Positions 8,032 to 15,998 of a DNA stretch of 64,000 nucleotides are shown here, piece by piece. How positions within the stretch are numbered: position 1 is the first letter of the stretch; each line of letters starts with the position of its first letter. Source of the stretch: Microscillaceae bacterium (GTDB lineage: Bacteria > Bacteroidota > Bacteroidia > Cytophagales > Microscillaceae). Below the pieces are notes generated by a model. It had not been told where the DNA came from and ran no database searches. It saw only the letters and a program-made list of their open reading frames with translations. The DNA lies in the NCBI GenBank assembly GCA_025054775.1, contig JANWZA010000059.1, positions 62,001 through 126,000 on the forward strand. The letters run 5' to 3'. The position numbers and the translations under genes were made by a program.

Positions 8032-9069
8032 TTAGGTACAAGTAGTTGCTGCTCCTTTGTTTTTTACAAACTCTCTAACAGAAATTTCTAAATCAGTAAA
8101 AAAGAATTGCGTTTTAGTGAAATTATTAGCTCTTAAATCTGCTCCTTGCAGTCGTGTATAATTAAAATTAGCTTCCATAAGGTTGGCATCAAGCAGGTTA
8201 GCACCGCTAAGATTACTGTGCGAAAAATCAACTCTAATCGCATTTACTTTACTCAAATCTACATAGCTTAGGTCTGCATCTGAAAAATTGGCTTGAATAA
8301 GGCTTGCTTCTTTGAAGGAGCTATTTCGGCAAAGCGTTTGAGAAAAATTAGCATTAATAGCATCTATAGCTTGCATGTTAGTTCCATAAAGTTCTGATTG
8401 CCAAAGGTTTGCATAATTCAATGAAGCCCTGCTTAGGTTCGCACCTACAAACTTACTTTGTATAGCTTGGCAATGGCTCATTTGAGCTTTTTGCATATCT
8501 GCTCCTGAAAAATCGGCTTGGTCAAAGTGAGAATATGTTAATAAAGCCCCTGTTAAATTAGCAAAACTGAAATTAGGCTTTTTAAGAGTTGCGTAGGCGA
8601 GGTTTACATAGCTAAGGTCTTGATATTCTAAATTAGCTTGAAAAAGTTGAGACCTTTTGAGCCAAAAGGCAAATTTATTTCGTAGTATCTCATCAATAGG
8701 CATGAGGTTGTGTGAGTTGTTAGCATGGCTTAAAATAGTCCAGTAAGCGGCAAAGGTATTGGCGGCTATTTCAGCAGGGTTATGCCTAAGGTAGGTTTCA
8801 TCATCAGTTTTCCATACGAAGTCGCATTGCAGAAAAGAGACAAGAAAAAAACTTAATCGTTCTTTGAGCAAATTTTTAGTGGTAGAGTTCGTTTCTTGAA
8901 CAGCTCTTATGAGGGCTTGCGTCTCCTCATTGGTGAGTTTATACAAGCCAAAATTTTGGGTGAAGAGGGCTAATACCGTTTGGGCATAATTGATTTGAAA
9001 ATATTCTTGGTCCTTAGGCTGTAATATCCCTTTTTTAATATTCTCTACAGCCTGAGCAAGATTGAGCAT
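8032..9069 (-). CDS. Pentapeptide-repeat protein
   Basis: 345 aa. The first 130 residues are a helical region without a recognised family. From about residue 145 to 325 the sequence is built of A(D/N)LXX-type pentapeptides (for example LSYVNLAYATL, ANLTGALLTYS, ADLSYVDLSKV), which should fold as a right-handed quadrilateral beta helix. Such proteins are usually protein-interaction scaffolds; the target cannot be inferred. There is no signal peptide or membrane segment. It ends in CT just before the stop and shares no operon. Confidence 0.85.
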   Translation of the reverse strand: MLNLAQAVENIKKGILQPKDQEYFQINYAQTVLALFTQNFGLYKLTNEETQALIRAVQETNSTTKNLLKERLSFFLVSFLQCDFVWKTDDETYLRHNPAEIAANTFAAYWTILSHANNSHNLMPIDEILRNKFAFWLKRSQLFQANLEYQDLSYVNLAYATLKKPNFSFANLTGALLTYSHFDQADFSGADMQKAQMSHCQAIQSKFVGANLSRASLNYANLWQSELYGTNMQAIDAINANFSQTLCRNSSFKEASLIQANFSDADLSYVDLSKVNAIRVDFSHSNLSGANLLDANLMEANFNYTRLQGADLRANNFTKTQFFFTDLEISVREFVKNKGAATTCT

Positions 9070-10882: not shown

Positions 10883-10915
10883 TTTGTTAATTTTAATTAT
10901 TTATATTTACCTTTG
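10883..10915 (+). promoter_or_regulatory. Promoter of the small Cys protein at the head of the copper-type locus
   Basis: TTTG (10883-10886), 21 nt, TACCTTTG (10908-10915). The expected start lies near 10920, leaving a leader of about 20 nt to the ATG at 10941. Confidence 0.7.
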
Positions 10916-10940: not shown

Positions 10941-11327
10941 ATGCGATCTCTCAAGGCAGTTCTCGTATGCTTACTTATTACAATGGTTATCTGCAAAATT
11001 GCAGGTAAGCTGTGGTTAGTGGCTTATGTAGAACTAAACCGAGAGTACATTGCAGAGGTGCTTTGTATCAATAAAAACAGACCCGAAATGGCTTGTCAAG
11101 GGCAATGTCACATAAACCAAATCTACCAAGAGACAGAAGAGCAAGAACAACCAAACCCTTTCCAATTATTACAACAAGATTTTTTTGAGCTATTTTTTCA
11201 AGAATTACCCATTTTTCAAAGTACTTCTTCATATTTTTTGCACCTTGTAAAGCATCAAACGCTTTATTTCATGCCTGCATTAGCTGATTTCTTTGAGAAA
11301 AGAACCAAGCCACCACAATTTATCTGA
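10941..11327 (+). CDS. Small membrane-anchored Cys-motif protein, function unknown
   Basis: 128 aa from the ATG at 10941; a TTG three codons upstream is in frame but less likely. One N-terminal hydrophobic segment (about residues 5-30) is followed by LNREYIAEVLC and a cluster C42, C52, C56, H57 in the form C-x9-C-x3-C-H (MACQGQCHINQ). The rest is Gln/Glu/Phe-rich and probably periplasmic. Similar short proteins with this spaced Cys motif are, from memory, often found beside metal-related genes in Bacteroidota. A metal-binding role is inference from the Cys/His cluster and from its position upstream of an MbnP-like gene. Confidence 0.7.
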   Translation: MRSLKAVLVCLLITMVICKIAGKLWLVAYVELNREYIAEVLCINKNRPEMACQGQCHINQIYQETEEQEQPNPFQLLQQDFFELFFQELPIFQSTSSYFLHLVKHQTLYFMPALADFFEKRTKPPQFI

Positions 11328-11756
11328 TTTTCCCCTCACCAATAAAGCAAGGATGAGTTATGAAAATTGAAGTTTCATAGCCGTAGGGTTAAATTATTAC
11401 TTTTAGGAATAGATGCGTAAAAACACTTACTCAAACCTTGCTTTACAATAATCATGTTTTCAGTTCAAAAAATTGCACTAGAGATTGAAAGGGCAAGCTC
11501 TTGAGAGCTTAGTGCGTAACACCAAAGCATTAGCGAAGCCCTTCAAAATTTACCCTTTTACCCTCTGAATGATAGCGATAAGAGTAAAAGGAACACCTTA
11601 ATTATTCCTAAAAAGCTATGCTATCATTTAGCAGAATTGTACAAAAATATAAATCAAAAATATAAATATAGTTAAATTTCTTTATTCAAGTAAAAATTGA
11701 AAATTTATTCACTTTCTAATAATTTATTGTACCACCCTTAAATTCTATCAAAGTTT
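11328..11756 (+). other. Gene-free gap rich in inverted repeats
   Basis: No credible ORF. The stretch holds several inverted repeats: 11343-11352 with 11436-11445 (10 bp, perfect), 11359-11365 with 11373-11379, 11400-11410 with 11604-11615, 11486-11494 with 11538-11546, a perfect 7-bp hairpin at 11495-11510, 11554-11566 with 11581-11591, and 11568-11576 with 11620-11628. Some of them cross. The last 115 nt are plain AT-rich sequence before the MbnP-like gene. It may be a structured leader or RNA, or the remains of a lost gene. Confidence 0.5.
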
Positions 11757-12581
11757 ATGAAAATTACATTTTCAAAATGGGTATTATTTCTAGTTTTTGG
11801 TGTGTTTTTCTACACCGCTTGCAACAAAAAAGACAAAGAGCCACAACCAAACTCTAATGTAATGGCAGAAATTAAGTTAGAATTTGACAATGTGGCGGGT
11901 AATCAAAATTTACAACTTAACAGCACTACGTACACCAACGCAGTGGGTGAGCAGTTTACAGTAAGTTTGTTCAATTACTATGTTTCAAATTTCGTGTTCA
12001 AAACGGCACAAGGCAATGAATATGTTGTACCACAGGATAGTTGCTATTTTTTGGTGCAAGAGAGCAACCGTAATTCGCAAGTGGTAAAAATGCGTGTACC
12101 TGAAGGAGACTATACCGAAGTTTCGTTTGTAATTGGGGTAGATAGCCTTCGCAATACGATGGACGTAAGCCGACGCACAGGTTCATTAGACGTAGCCAAC
12201 CTAACAGGTGAAAACAAAATGTATTGGTCTTGGAACTCAGGTTACATTTTTGTGAAACTAGAAGGGAACTCACCCGCTGCACCTGCCGATCCCACAGGTG
12301 CCCGCCGCTTCCGCTACCACATTGGAGGCTTTGGGGGCTATTCCAGCCGAACTATCAACAATATAAAAACAACTACAATTTCATTTGGAAATCAACATGC
12401 CAAAGTACGCAAAGGCAAATCGCCTCTTGTGCATCTCGAGGTAGATGTATTGAAAGTATTTAATGGTTCTACCAATTTGAGCATCGCAAGCCATCCTACT
12501 GTTATGTTCTCTCCTTTTTCTGTAAATATTGCGAATAATTACCAGAAAATGTTCAGTTTTCACCACTTACATAATGAATAA
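11757..12581 (+). CDS. MbnP-like periplasmic copper-binding lipoprotein
   Basis: 274 aa. A lipoprotein signal with lipobox-like YTAC (C22) is followed by an MbnP-type domain. Landmarks: GVDSLRN (127-133), MYWSWNSGYIF (155-165, with W157 and W159), FRYHIGG (185-191, H188), and a His-rich C-terminus (H269, H270, H272). MbnP proteins bind copper after a tryptophan is oxidised to kynurenine by the di-heme enzyme MbnH; that is known for the methanobactin system, and its operation here is inferred. A MbnH/MauG-like gene lies 1.4 kb downstream. A strong terminator follows, so it may be transcribed alone. Confidence 0.83.
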   Translation: MKITFSKWVLFLVFGVFFYTACNKKDKEPQPNSNVMAEIKLEFDNVAGNQNLQLNSTTYTNAVGEQFTVSLFNYYVSNFVFKTAQGNEYVVPQDSCYFLVQESNRNSQVVKMRVPEGDYTEVSFVIGVDSLRNTMDVSRRTGSLDVANLTGENKMYWSWNSGYIFVKLEGNSPAAPADPTGARRFRYHIGGFGGYSSRTINNIKTTTISFGNQHAKVRKGKSPLVHLEVDVLKVFNGSTNLSIASHPTVMFSPFSVNIANNYQKMFSFHHLHNE

Positions 12582-12597
12582 CTTTTTCTTTTGATTG

Positions 12598-12626
12598 AAA
12601 ACTACCCTAAATTTTAGGGTAGTTTT
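12598..12626 (+). terminator. Terminator of the MbnP-like gene
   Basis: Stem of about 13 bp, AAAACTACCCTAA paired with TTAGGGTAGTTTT, 16 nt after the stop codon, ending in TTTT. Confidence 0.85.
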
Positions 12627-12700
12627 ATCTATAAAAATAAGAAATTATTGAAATCTAATCAAAAACTTACTAATTATTAACATTTTTTATCCTTGTTTCT

Positions 12701-13090
12701 ATGAAATCACAAAAAATTAAACTCTCTCGTATCTATATCAACGAGTACGGAGAAATTGTAAAGCATCAAAGTAAAATAACAAAAATAGCTTTACATTTTT
12801 GTAAAATTTTGAAAGTATTACCTTTTATAGTAAGTATTACTCTTTGCGCGCTAATGATTATGGAAGTGTGTTGCTTTATAGGATTAGTACAAAGTCTAAT
12901 GAATTTGAGACAAAGTGGTGATACAAGTGTATATCTTTTTTTGTGTGTAGCTATCTTTTTGATTTGTTTAATTAGTTTAAGTATTGGTGATTATTTAGTT
13001 AAGATAGAGCAACCTAAGGCAATAGAACCTAAATTAAGCAAACTACAAAAGAAATTGAAAAATAATAGCTTTGACCATTTAAGCTATTAG
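12701..13090 (+). CDS. Small membrane protein, function unknown
   Basis: 129 aa. A basic N-terminus precedes two long hydrophobic segments (about residues 38-66 and 76-98), and a Lys-rich tail follows, so both ends probably face the cytoplasm. No family was recognised. Cys and Met occur inside the segments (MIMEVCCFIG), which would fit metal traffic but does not prove it. A weak -7-like TATCCTTG lies just upstream. It stands between the MbnP-like and PepSY genes, same strand. Confidence 0.6.
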   Translation: MKSQKIKLSRIYINEYGEIVKHQSKITKIALHFCKILKVLPFIVSITLCALMIMEVCCFIGLVQSLMNLRQSGDTSVYLFLCVAIFLICLISLSIGDYLVKIEQPKAIEPKLSKLQKKLKNNSFDHLSY

Positions 13091-13252
13091 TGGTAAATAT
13101 TCAGAAAAAGAGAATACTTTGCTTTGGAAAGTGAAGCCTGAGGTAGTCAATACAAAAAGGTTGACGCATGTAGCTCGTCCCAAAGGTGAATATGGATAAG
13201 TAGAATTTCGTTAGGAGCAACTTAAATTCATATTTCAAATAAAGCCTGCAGA

Positions 13253-13987
13253 ATGATAAGCAAAGTAAAAATTCAGAGATATGTAAGAAAAGTGCACCGT
13301 TATTTAGGTGTATTCTTGGGCATACAACTTTTGGCTTGGACAATAGGGGGATTATATTTTAGCTGGACAAACATAGAGCAAATTAGAGGAGAGAATTTGA
13401 GAGCAGAGAAAAAAAAATTACCTATTGTGTCGCAAAGTGCCTCCTTGGGGAATCTGTTGGATAGCTTACAAAAAAGTATACCTAAAATTGCGTTTAAGCA
13501 TATTCAAGTGGTAGAAATTTTGAATAAGGCGTACTATCAAATTCACGCAGAAGTTCCTGAAAAAAAGATATTTTTGTTTGATATGAAAACACTTTTACTC
13601 AAAAAACCGCTTACTAAGGAAGAGGCGTGTGCGGTAGCTCAAAGTAACTTGAAAAACCCTTCTAAAATTCTAAAAATTGAATACCTAACTCAAACGCATG
13701 GGCATCATGAGTACAGGGAGAAACCTCTACCCGCCTATGCCATTACCTTTGGTAAACCTAACAACACAACCGTGTACGTAGCTACCGAACTTGGCACTGT
13801 GCAAAGCTATCGTAACAATGCTTGGCGTATTTTTGACTTTTTGTGGATGCTCCACACTATGGATTATGAAAACCGAGATAATATAAATAATTGGTTATTA
13901 AGAGTTTTTTCACTTATAGGATTGATAACCATTTTATCAGGATTTGTATTATATTTTCTCACTTCAAAATCAGTTTTTGTGCGTTGA
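13253..13987 (+). CDS. PepSY-associated transmembrane protein
   Basis: 244 aa. The N-terminus VRKVHRYLGVFLGIQLLAWTIGG is the PepSY-TM start with the HR pair (H15, R16) and a first membrane helix (about 17-38). A periplasmic PepSY-like region follows (CAVAQSNL..EYLTQTHGHHEYREKPLPAYAITF), then WMLHTMDYENRDN, where H and D residues are typical, and a last helix (about 218-238). Relatives include ferric or cupric reductase-like proteins. It starts the run PepSY-cytochrome-barrel (gaps 43 and 12 nt), pointing to a shared metal or redox role. Confidence 0.8.
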   Translation: MISKVKIQRYVRKVHRYLGVFLGIQLLAWTIGGLYFSWTNIEQIRGENLRAEKKKLPIVSQSASLGNLLDSLQKSIPKIAFKHIQVVEILNKAYYQIHAEVPEKKIFLFDMKTLLLKKPLTKEEACAVAQSNLKNPSKILKIEYLTQTHGHHEYREKPLPAYAITFGKPNNTTVYVATELGTVQSYRNNAWRIFDFLWMLHTMDYENRDNINNWLLRVFSLIGLITILSGFVLYFLTSKSVFVR

Positions 13988-14030
13988 ATTGCATTTATTG
14001 CGTTTCGTTCTATAGTAAAATTACAAACTT

Positions 14031-15083
14031 ATGAAAAAAATATCCTTTTTGATAGTTGGTTTTTTGATTTTTGTATTAGTATTTTGGCTGAATAGCTGTA
14101 CCAAAAAATCAGAGGTTCAGCCTGAAATTACTTTTGTAAAACCCGCAAACTTTCCTGAACCTGTATATAAATTAGAGCGAAATCCAATAACAAAAGCAGG
14201 TTTTGAATTGGGGCGAATGTTGTTTTATGAACCGTTACTTTCCAGAGATGGAAGTATCAGTTGTGGCAGTTGTCATATTCAAGGTTCAGCTTTTACGCAC
14301 CACGGGCACGATGTAAGCCATGGGATTGACGACCGTTTAGGAAATCGCAATGCACCTGCTATTCAGAATATGGCATTTTATCCGCATTTCATGTGGGACG
14401 GGGGGATTTTCGACCTTGACCTTCAACCTATTGCCCCTATTGAGAGCCACGTGGAAATGGACGAACAACTAGAAAATGTATTAGAAAAATTGCGTAAAAC
14501 TCGCAAATACCCACCCCTGTTTCAAAAAGCATTCGGTACTCCTGAAATTACAACATCAAAATTTTTGAAAGCTCTTTCGCAATTCATGCTTATGATGATC
14601 TCCTCTAACAGTCGTTATGATAAGTATGTGAGAAAAGAAAAAGGCGGCGAACTTACACAAGAGGAGCTAGAAGGGTTGGCAATTTTTCGGCAGAAATGTG
14701 GCACGTGCCATAGTGGAGAATTGTTTACGGATTTTAGCTTTCGTAATATTGGTTTGAGTGATTTTGTGAATAAAGACGAGGGGCGTGCTTTAATTACACT
14801 CAACCCTGAAGACAAATACAAGTTCAGAGTACCGAGTTTGCGAAATGTTGCTCTTACGCAACCTTATATGCACGACGGAAGGTTTAGAACCTTGCAAGAG
14901 GTCTTGAACCATTATTCGGATAATATGCAAGATTTTCCGAATTTGGATAGTACTTTTCGTAGGGGGGGTAAGTTAGGAATACCTCTTAACGAGAATGAAA
15001 AAACAAAAATTATTGCTTTTTTACGTACTCTTTCTGATGAAACTTTTATTAGAGATAAGCGTTTTTCTGAACCCACACCTTAA
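14031..15083 (+). CDS. Di-heme cytochrome c peroxidase family, MauG/MbnH-like
   Basis: 350 aa. A lipoprotein-type signal (LNSC, C23) sends it to the periplasm. Two haem-c sites are present: CGSCH (78-82) and CGTCH (223-227). MWDGG (121-125) carries the Trp (W122) that lies between the haems in this family, and PYMHDGRFRTLQEV (278-291) is the usual distal ligand region. The family includes peroxidases and the protein-tryptophan-oxidising enzymes MauG and MbnH. The nearby MbnP-like gene makes an MbnH role the leading guess. It probably forms one operon with the PepSY gene upstream and the barrel gene 12 nt downstream. Confidence 0.87.
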   Translation: MKKISFLIVGFLIFVLVFWLNSCTKKSEVQPEITFVKPANFPEPVYKLERNPITKAGFELGRMLFYEPLLSRDGSISCGSCHIQGSAFTHHGHDVSHGIDDRLGNRNAPAIQNMAFYPHFMWDGGIFDLDLQPIAPIESHVEMDEQLENVLEKLRKTRKYPPLFQKAFGTPEITTSKFLKALSQFMLMMISSNSRYDKYVRKEKGGELTQEELEGLAIFRQKCGTCHSGELFTDFSFRNIGLSDFVNKDEGRALITLNPEDKYKFRVPSLRNVALTQPYMHDGRFRTLQEVLNHYSDNMQDFPNLDSTFRRGGKLGIPLNENEKTKIIAFLRTLSDETFIRDKRFSEPTP

Positions 15084-15095
15084 AAAATATTAAAA

Positions 15096-15998
15096 ATGAA
15101 AAAAATATCTTTGTTGATTTTAGTAATTATTTTTGCCCAAATACCAAGTTTTTCTTGTGATATTTGTGGTTGTGGTGCAGGAAGTTATTATTTGGGTTTT
15201 ATGCCTCAACTCAACCGAAATTTAATCGGTGTACGATATCGCTACATGGATTTTCATACCTACGGGCACCGCAGCTGGGAAAATACCCAAGAGTATTTTC
15301 ATATTACAGAGGTGTGGGCGCGTATTTATCCGCACAAAAAATGGCAAGTTATGGGTTTTTTACCTTATAGTTTTAACAGGCAACAAACCTATACAGGAAA
15401 TAAGTATTTGCAAGGTATCAATGATGTACTTTTTTTGGCTAACTATCAGCTAATCAATACCTTAAATGATACAATAAGTGAAAAAAAACATAGTCTTTGG
15501 CTTGGTGGAGGTGTAAAATTGCCTACGGGCAAATATCAATACAATGAAATGGATACACGTGTGGTTGCTAATCCAAATTTTCAGTTAGGCACGGGTAGTA
15601 CCGATTTCTTAGTGAATTTAGTCTATACTTTACGAAAAAATAAATGGGGAATTAACACAGAGGCAAGCTATAAAATTAACACATCCAATAGTGAAAATTA
15701 TAGGTTTGGAAATAGATTTATGACTACAACTTCGTTTTTTTACTTACGTCAAGTGAAAAATATAGCCCTCATGCCTCACGTAGGTTTTTACGCAGAATAC
15801 TCAGGCATGGATAGCCGTAACCAAACTGAAGTAGAACATACAGGCGGGGGGGCATTAGCTACTTCGGTTGGAGTAGATGTATTTTTCAAAAATTTTACTT
15901 GGGCTTTGCATTGGCAAAAACCTTTGATGCAAAATTTAGGACAAGGACATATTTTTGCTCAAAATCGGTTGGTAGTGCAAATGAATGTTACATTTTAG
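15096..15998 (+). CDS. Cys-rich outer-membrane beta-barrel protein of the copper-type locus
   Basis: 300 aa. A signal peptide (about residues 1-20) is followed directly by C21-D-I-C24-G-C26-G, a compact Cys cluster at the mature N-terminus. The rest consists of alternating amphipathic strands and ends in MNVTF, a terminal Phe as in outer-membrane barrels. It resembles transporter-like barrels of the phenol-degradation type in Bacteroidota. It follows the di-heme cytochrome by 12 nt. Metal passage or sensing is inferred from the Cys cluster and neighbours. A lipoprotein reading of C21 is possible, but the lipobox is weak. Confidence 0.75.
   Translation: MKKISLLILVIIFAQIPSFSCDICGCGAGSYYLGFMPQLNRNLIGVRYRYMDFHTYGHRSWENTQEYFHITEVWARIYPHKKWQVMGFLPYSFNRQQTYTGNKYLQGINDVLFLANYQLINTLNDTISEKKHSLWLGGGVKLPTGKYQYNEMDTRVVANPNFQLGTGSTDFLVNLVYTLRKNKWGINTEASYKINTSNSENYRFGNRFMTTTSFFYLRQVKNIALMPHVGFYAEYSGMDSRNQTEVEHTGGGALATSVGVDVFFKNFTWALHWQKPLMQNLGQGHIFAQNRLVVQMNVTF

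Follow-up and report, generated by a model that had tools for sequence, protein, structure and literature searches.

What does a pair of putative copper-handling proteins do in a bacterium without methanobactin genes, and how is its expression controlled? The locus that raises this question lies in a 64,000-nucleotide stretch (the window, to which all coordinates refer) of Microscillaceae bacterium, assembly GCA_025054775.1, contig JANWZA010000059.1, positions 62,001–126,000. A preliminary description had reported a same-strand set of genes between 10941 and 15998, and the six open reading frames (ORFs) are all present there on the + strand. The MbnP/MbnH part of the locus is a further example of a published pairing; the surprise is the first gene, 10941–11327, which resembles a copper sensor read during its own synthesis on the ribosome more than it does a functional protein. 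By analogy with characterized leaders, we regard it as probable, with moderate confidence, that the locus is one copper-regulated operon in which a nascent-chain copper-sensor leader precedes a copper-acquisition module.

The features at the head of the locus are as follows.
10884–10915 (+): putative Bacteroidota-type promoter from a motif scan, with TTG at 10884–10886, a 21-nucleotide spacer and TACCTTTG at 10908–10915.
10941–11327 (+): leader ORF, 128 residues, with an N-terminal membrane segment, a Cys block and a C-terminal Pro-Pro.
11328–11756 (+): leader-to-MbnP gap, 429 nucleotides, with an inverted repeat and an interspersed repeat.

The leader belongs to a family with 111 unique homologues, present in 78 of 198 Bacteroidota genomes that were drawn evenly. 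Its members share the pattern C-x-N...C-x-G-x-C, followed by 62–72 poorly conserved residues and then Pro-Pro, with a spacing from the last Cys of most commonly 67–68 residues. In the window the Cys block is C42-x-N44...C52-x-G54-x-C56 (codons 11064–11108) and the proline pair is P124-P125 (codons 11310–11315), three residues before the stop. A Pro-Pro within the last 12 residues is found in 108 of the 111 unique leaders; only 8 of 820 other ORFs have one within the last 10. The residue before it is His in 66 of the 111, the preceding one is Phe in 73, and the tail behind the prolines is usually 2–4 residues long. The mean frequency of the commonest residue is 0.66 in the Cys block and 0.99–1.0 at the Pro-Pro, against 0.19–0.22 in between. 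This is the anatomy of CruR and CutF, copper-sensing leaders known from Proteobacteria: a small exported ORF with a metal motif, a C-terminal PP and a metal gene downstream on the same strand (export of the present leader being suggested by its hydrophobic N-terminus). The small Cys/His membrane protein of the preliminary description is present, but a leader of the CutF/CruR type accounts for it better than a functional component of the copper path would.

The three invariant cysteines, the N-terminal membrane segment and the company of copper genes would also suit a working copper chaperone, anchored in the inner membrane and passing copper to or from MbnP, with the Pro-Pro end as a docking motif and regulation residing elsewhere. 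We consider such a chaperone unlikely. About 50 residues between the Cys block and the Pro-Pro are unconserved and the length is nevertheless held at 62–72, the gene lies next to the promoter and is followed by a long gap, and it heads downstream genes that are unrelated to one another.

The position of the leader was examined by a promoter search, for which the Bacteroidota −33/−7 pattern was informative and a sigma-70-type scan, with results not above shuffles, was not. A −7 box was found between −100 and +30 of the start in 57 of 112 leaders, compared with 0 of 66 MbnP, 4 of 63 MauG and 1 of 51 barrel genes, and no full promoter turned up in 25 kb of downstream gaps. The median gap is 120 nucleotides behind the leader versus 8 elsewhere in the operon, and the leader is the upstream member in 61 of 62 adjacent family pairs. 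Going by this motif and by its overrepresentation among the homologues, transcription would start just before 10941. The gap behind the window leader holds a 10-bp perfect inverted repeat (11343–11352/11436–11445); a search of this gap for an intrinsic terminator found none.

Downstream of the gap are five further genes.
11757–12581 (+): MbnP-family lipoprotein (PF20243), with lipid-bearing C22, M155-Y-W157-S-W159 and H188.
12701–13090 (+): small membrane protein without a family, which recurs in leader-headed operons of the relatives L221, L226 and L227.
13253–13987 (+): PepSY_TM protein, 244 residues, matching the PepSY_TM profile and with a homologue in a genome of the same family.
14031–15083 (+): di-heme MbnH/MauG-like lipoprotein, with CxxCH at 78–82 and 223–227 and with Tyr295.
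15096–15998 (+): predicted outer-membrane beta-barrel of ~12 strands, FapF/COG4313-like, with a conserved N-terminal C21-D-x-C24-G-C26.

A Pfam profile search gave no family for the first, third and sixth ORFs. Outside the locus, a 345-residue pentapeptide-repeat protein is encoded at 8032–9069 (−), near a tRNA-Pro gene.

To see which of these genes travel together, neighbourhoods were compared in 31 relatives found by sequence and in the 198 genomes, the neighbour genes being mechanical ORFs rather than curated gene calls. The arrangement that recurs in the 31 relatives is small Cys ORF–MbnP–MauG–barrel, with the barrel before MbnP in some loci; of the six genes, four thus show strong co-occurrence in related genomes, on which the preliminary description depended. 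Across the 198 genomes a leader lies within 6 kb of 29 of the 68 MbnP genes, on the same strand and always upstream, and the barrel accompanies MbnP in 22 of the 68 cases. At genome level the association of MbnP with the leader has an odds ratio of 8.6 (p ~1e-9, uncorrected for phylogeny). In loci where the leader is not followed by MbnP, what comes next is often a TonB receptor (33 of 49, by Plug), YtkA (7) or SCO1/SenC (2), and in some loci the leader sits upstream of the barrel. We read MbnP, MbnH and the FapF-like CDxCGC barrel as the conserved core of a modular copper-acquisition operon.

The barrel has a predicted fold like that of FapF/COG4313 (TM 0.6–0.7, 13% identity). Its mature N-terminus, earlier described as C-D-I-C-G-C, is indeed conserved as C21-D-I-C24-G-C26, with C24 kept in 100% and C21 and C26 in 96% of homologues; the model places this CDxCGC segment in a disordered region. 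The protein may form a channel in the outer membrane, with an N-terminus that possibly binds metal.

Barrels of the FapF type serve for export, as far as the role of FapF can be taken from a PDB title, and CutF is reported to raise the gene behind it in the presence of copper (PMC9973294). Both points would fit an operon which, like cutFO, is induced by an excess of copper and serves its detoxification or export, as opposed to acquisition under starvation. We judge this to be distinctly unlikely: the 25 families listed beside the leader include no RND, OEP or multicopper oxidase and do include TonB receptors, YtkA and SCO1, and copper represses those relatives of the MbnP/MbnH pair that have been characterized (PMC3621798).

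The preliminary description had also proposed the small membrane protein and the PepSY-type protein as partners. The PepSY assignment of 13253–13987 holds (PepSY_TM 34.9 bits, cut-off 28.8), and the two proteins recur together in a leader–TonB operon of a genome of the same family, L221, but they lie outside the conserved core, neither being found in the loci of the 31 relatives. The L221 operon has the order leader–TonB receptor–small membrane protein–(unknown)–DUF2911–PepSY and its PepSY protein is 77% identical to that of the window; in L226 and L227 the small membrane protein follows the barrel. We read the two genes as lineage-specific. Since they occur in leader-headed operons of relatives, the window operon looks like two leader-headed copper cassettes joined together. 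Some leader-headed operons also carry, next to the gene of the small membrane protein, a member of a secreted protein family (SIFDxWxEL...TFHPSE; L221:7607–8047 and L226:3460–3864), for which Pfam gave no match.

For 11757–12581, the profile check called for by the preliminary description gave PF20243 at 183.9 bits (cut-off 27). Its AlphaFold2 model has a strong Foldseek match to MbnP of PDB 7l6g only (E 4e-11); the superposition spans 222 residues at 3.2 Å with Z 17.8, and the next-best structure reaches Z 7.2. The MbnP equivalog model TIGR04052 scores 53.4 bits, below its cut-off of 140, and the protein is on its sequence a member of PF20243 rather than a TIGR04052 equivalog. M155, W157, W159 and H188 (M155-Y-W157-S-W159 encoded from 12219, H188 at 12318–12320) align in register with 7l6g. 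In the MbnP family these are the copper-site residues. The three that had been singled out earlier, W157, W159 and H188, are kept in 82, 81 and 80 of 83 homologues, respectively, and M155 in 75 of 83. The His-rich tail that had been ascribed to MbnP is present here as FSFHHLHNE but is variable among homologues. That both partners are lipoproteins is supported by the Cys at the lipobox position (C22 in MbnP, C23 in the di-heme enzyme), which is shared by >90% of relatives.

Two further MbnP genes may be noted. An orphan in the same genome (L182:7559–8305; G000:C43:57642–58208) has an intact MFWTW and no adjoining di-heme enzyme or leader. In the leader–MbnP–barrel locus L038 (2458–3249), which has no MauG gene, Leu replaces the second tryptophan of the WxW motif (MYWNL), possibly a natural case of lost modification.

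The assignment of 14031–15083 to the MauG family is likewise upheld, by a CCP_MauG score of 179.9 bits, and both heme motifs (C78–H82 and C223–H227) are invariant. Its nearest relative among solved structures is MbnH 6e1c (145 bits), tied with the classical peroxidase 4aal (145 bits). By alignment Tyr295, 97% conserved, occupies the axial ligand position of the high-potential heme, a Tyr of the MauG/MbnH type instead of Met. An ordinary cytochrome c peroxidase that removes H2O2 to protect the module, beside a plain copper lipoprotein with its Trp unmodified, would explain the equal scores, but we give it very little weight in view of Tyr295, which aligns to Tyr in 6e1c and to Met in the peroxidase 1iqc, of the MbnH equivalog TIGR04039, which at 225 bits is the top NCBIfam model and outranks MauG, of the adjacency of the MbnP and MauG genes in 60 pairs, and of the loss of W159 from the L038 protein.

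The profile, fold, motif and genome results thus bear out the preliminary description in its reading of the sequence. Its pair without methanobactin genes also stands: a search of the genome for PF05114 (MbnB-type) gave no match, and we rejected identity of the locus with a methanobactin operon. The pair itself is not new, as a 2013 paper had already noted MbnP/MbnH-type pairs that lie outside methanobactin operons (PMC3621798).

In the mechanism that we favour, the leader would act as a nascent-chain copper sensor, sensing during its export. When the ribosome reaches the Pro-Pro codons, the Cys block, ~68 residues before them, would be outside the ribosome. By analogy with CruR and CutF, copper on the Cys block may alter stalling at the Pro-Pro, and the outcome may control transcription or translation of the genes that follow. 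Expression would be expected under copper starvation, a prediction drawn from CruR and from the copper-repressed CorA/CorB and MopE. The oxidation of an MbnP Trp by the MbnH-like enzyme, put forward previously, is plausible; from conservation and the characterized family, W157 would be converted to kynurenine, creating a Cu(I) site to which M155 and H188 also contribute. At the outer membrane the barrel could hand on copper or accept it; at the inner membrane the PepSY_TM protein may be a source of reducing power or reduce copper, as suggested by CrpH. Together the products would form an extracytoplasmic copper-acquisition module, and a complete copper path from barrel to inner membrane can be envisaged.

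Several observations weigh against this reading. The window leader ends in TKPP rather than the consensus FHPP, a conserved C-terminal Pro-Pro could serve the mature protein, and according to the CutF study the proline motif alone gave no stall in a fusion assay (PMC9973294). No match to DUF2946 (PF11162), the family to which both CruR and CutF belong, was found in the window or the genome. A same-strand ORF ends just upstream in 39 of the 111 leaders, and the leader is therefore not proven to be the first gene everywhere. The gap contains a genome-wide repeat element (~11466–11615, about 130–150 bp, with 28 further partial copies across the genome at 68–86% identity), which inflates it, so that its 429 nucleotides are not readable as a designed regulatory length; strong RNA structure in the gap was rejected (z −1.4 versus shuffles, only slightly more stable). 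The TIGR04039 score is below its cut-off of 363, and MbnH function here comes from homology only.

The locus offers a conserved set of partners and a testable regulatory switch for MbnP/MbnH pairs outside methanobactin producers. If the proposal is true, Bacteroidota too have nascent-chain copper sensing, and its arrest motif there is another one; a 2025 survey reported RAPP/RGPP upstream ORFs of copper genes to be missing from the phylum (PMC12992588). We put at about even the broader proposition that Bacteroidota have copper-sensing arrest peptides of a separate class, marked by C-x-N...C-x-G-x-C and a C-terminal FHPP and not recognizable by DUF2946, which head a modular, phylum-wide copper regulon (MbnP/MbnH/barrel, TonB, YtkA, SCO1) and place a kynurenine-type copper site under nascent-chain control.

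Among known systems, MbnP/MbnH of Methylosinus trichosporium (7l6g, 6e1c) shares with the window pair the fold of MbnP, an M-x-W-x-W motif and a His that align in register, a di-heme enzyme as partner whose Tyr stands where MauG has it, and adjacent genes. The window pair differs in having no methanobactin genes, two predicted lipoproteins and other operon partners, and its MbnP is not the four-Cys equivalog (TIGR04052, 53 of 140 bits). CorA/CorB and MopE/SACCP of methanotrophs likewise combine a surface Cu(I) protein carrying kynurenine with a di-heme partner like bacterial cytochrome c peroxidase or MauG and are copper-repressed, but their copper proteins belong to a different sequence family (two-His site) and a different phylum. 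The barrel resembles FapF/COG4313 channels in predicted fold, differing in its N-terminal CDxCGC and copper-operon context. The PepSY_TM protein is shorter than those of the CrpH subfamily; copper reduction has been proposed for CrpH (PMC13038864).

The closest parallels to the leader are CruR and CutF. CruR (Bp2923, DUF2946; cruR-crtA-crpH of Bordetella pertussis) is also an exported small ORF heading a copper operon, with a Cys metal motif, Pro-Pro three residues before the stop, a long gap, and TonB and PepSY_TM genes downstream; its arrest has been shown in vitro (PMC12992588), and its relatives precede TonB, PepSY_TM, SCO, PCuAC and MbnPH-like genes (PMC9426467). The present leader differs in its motif (C-x-N...C-x-G-x-C versus CxxC), ending (FHPP versus RAPP), spacing (62–72 versus 45) and profile. 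As a DUF2946 homologue it was rejected, the weak Bacteroidota matches being other genes elsewhere; matches on a Cupriavidus plasmid were sub-threshold only. CutF of Rhodobacter capsulatus and CutF-like proteins are again small and exported, with a metal motif, Pro-Pro within 15 C-terminal residues and metal genes downstream, but the gene after CutF encodes a multicopper oxidase, and the response of CutF to copper is positive. According to PMC9973294, CutF works similarly to CruR with the opposite sign, CutF-like proteins are counted in Bacteroidota too, and neither MbnP/MbnH nor MauG is named in the main text; its CutF-like lists may contain the window leader family. Given the missing DUF2946 match and the FHPP ending, the leader family appears to work like CruR and CutF from outside DUF2946.

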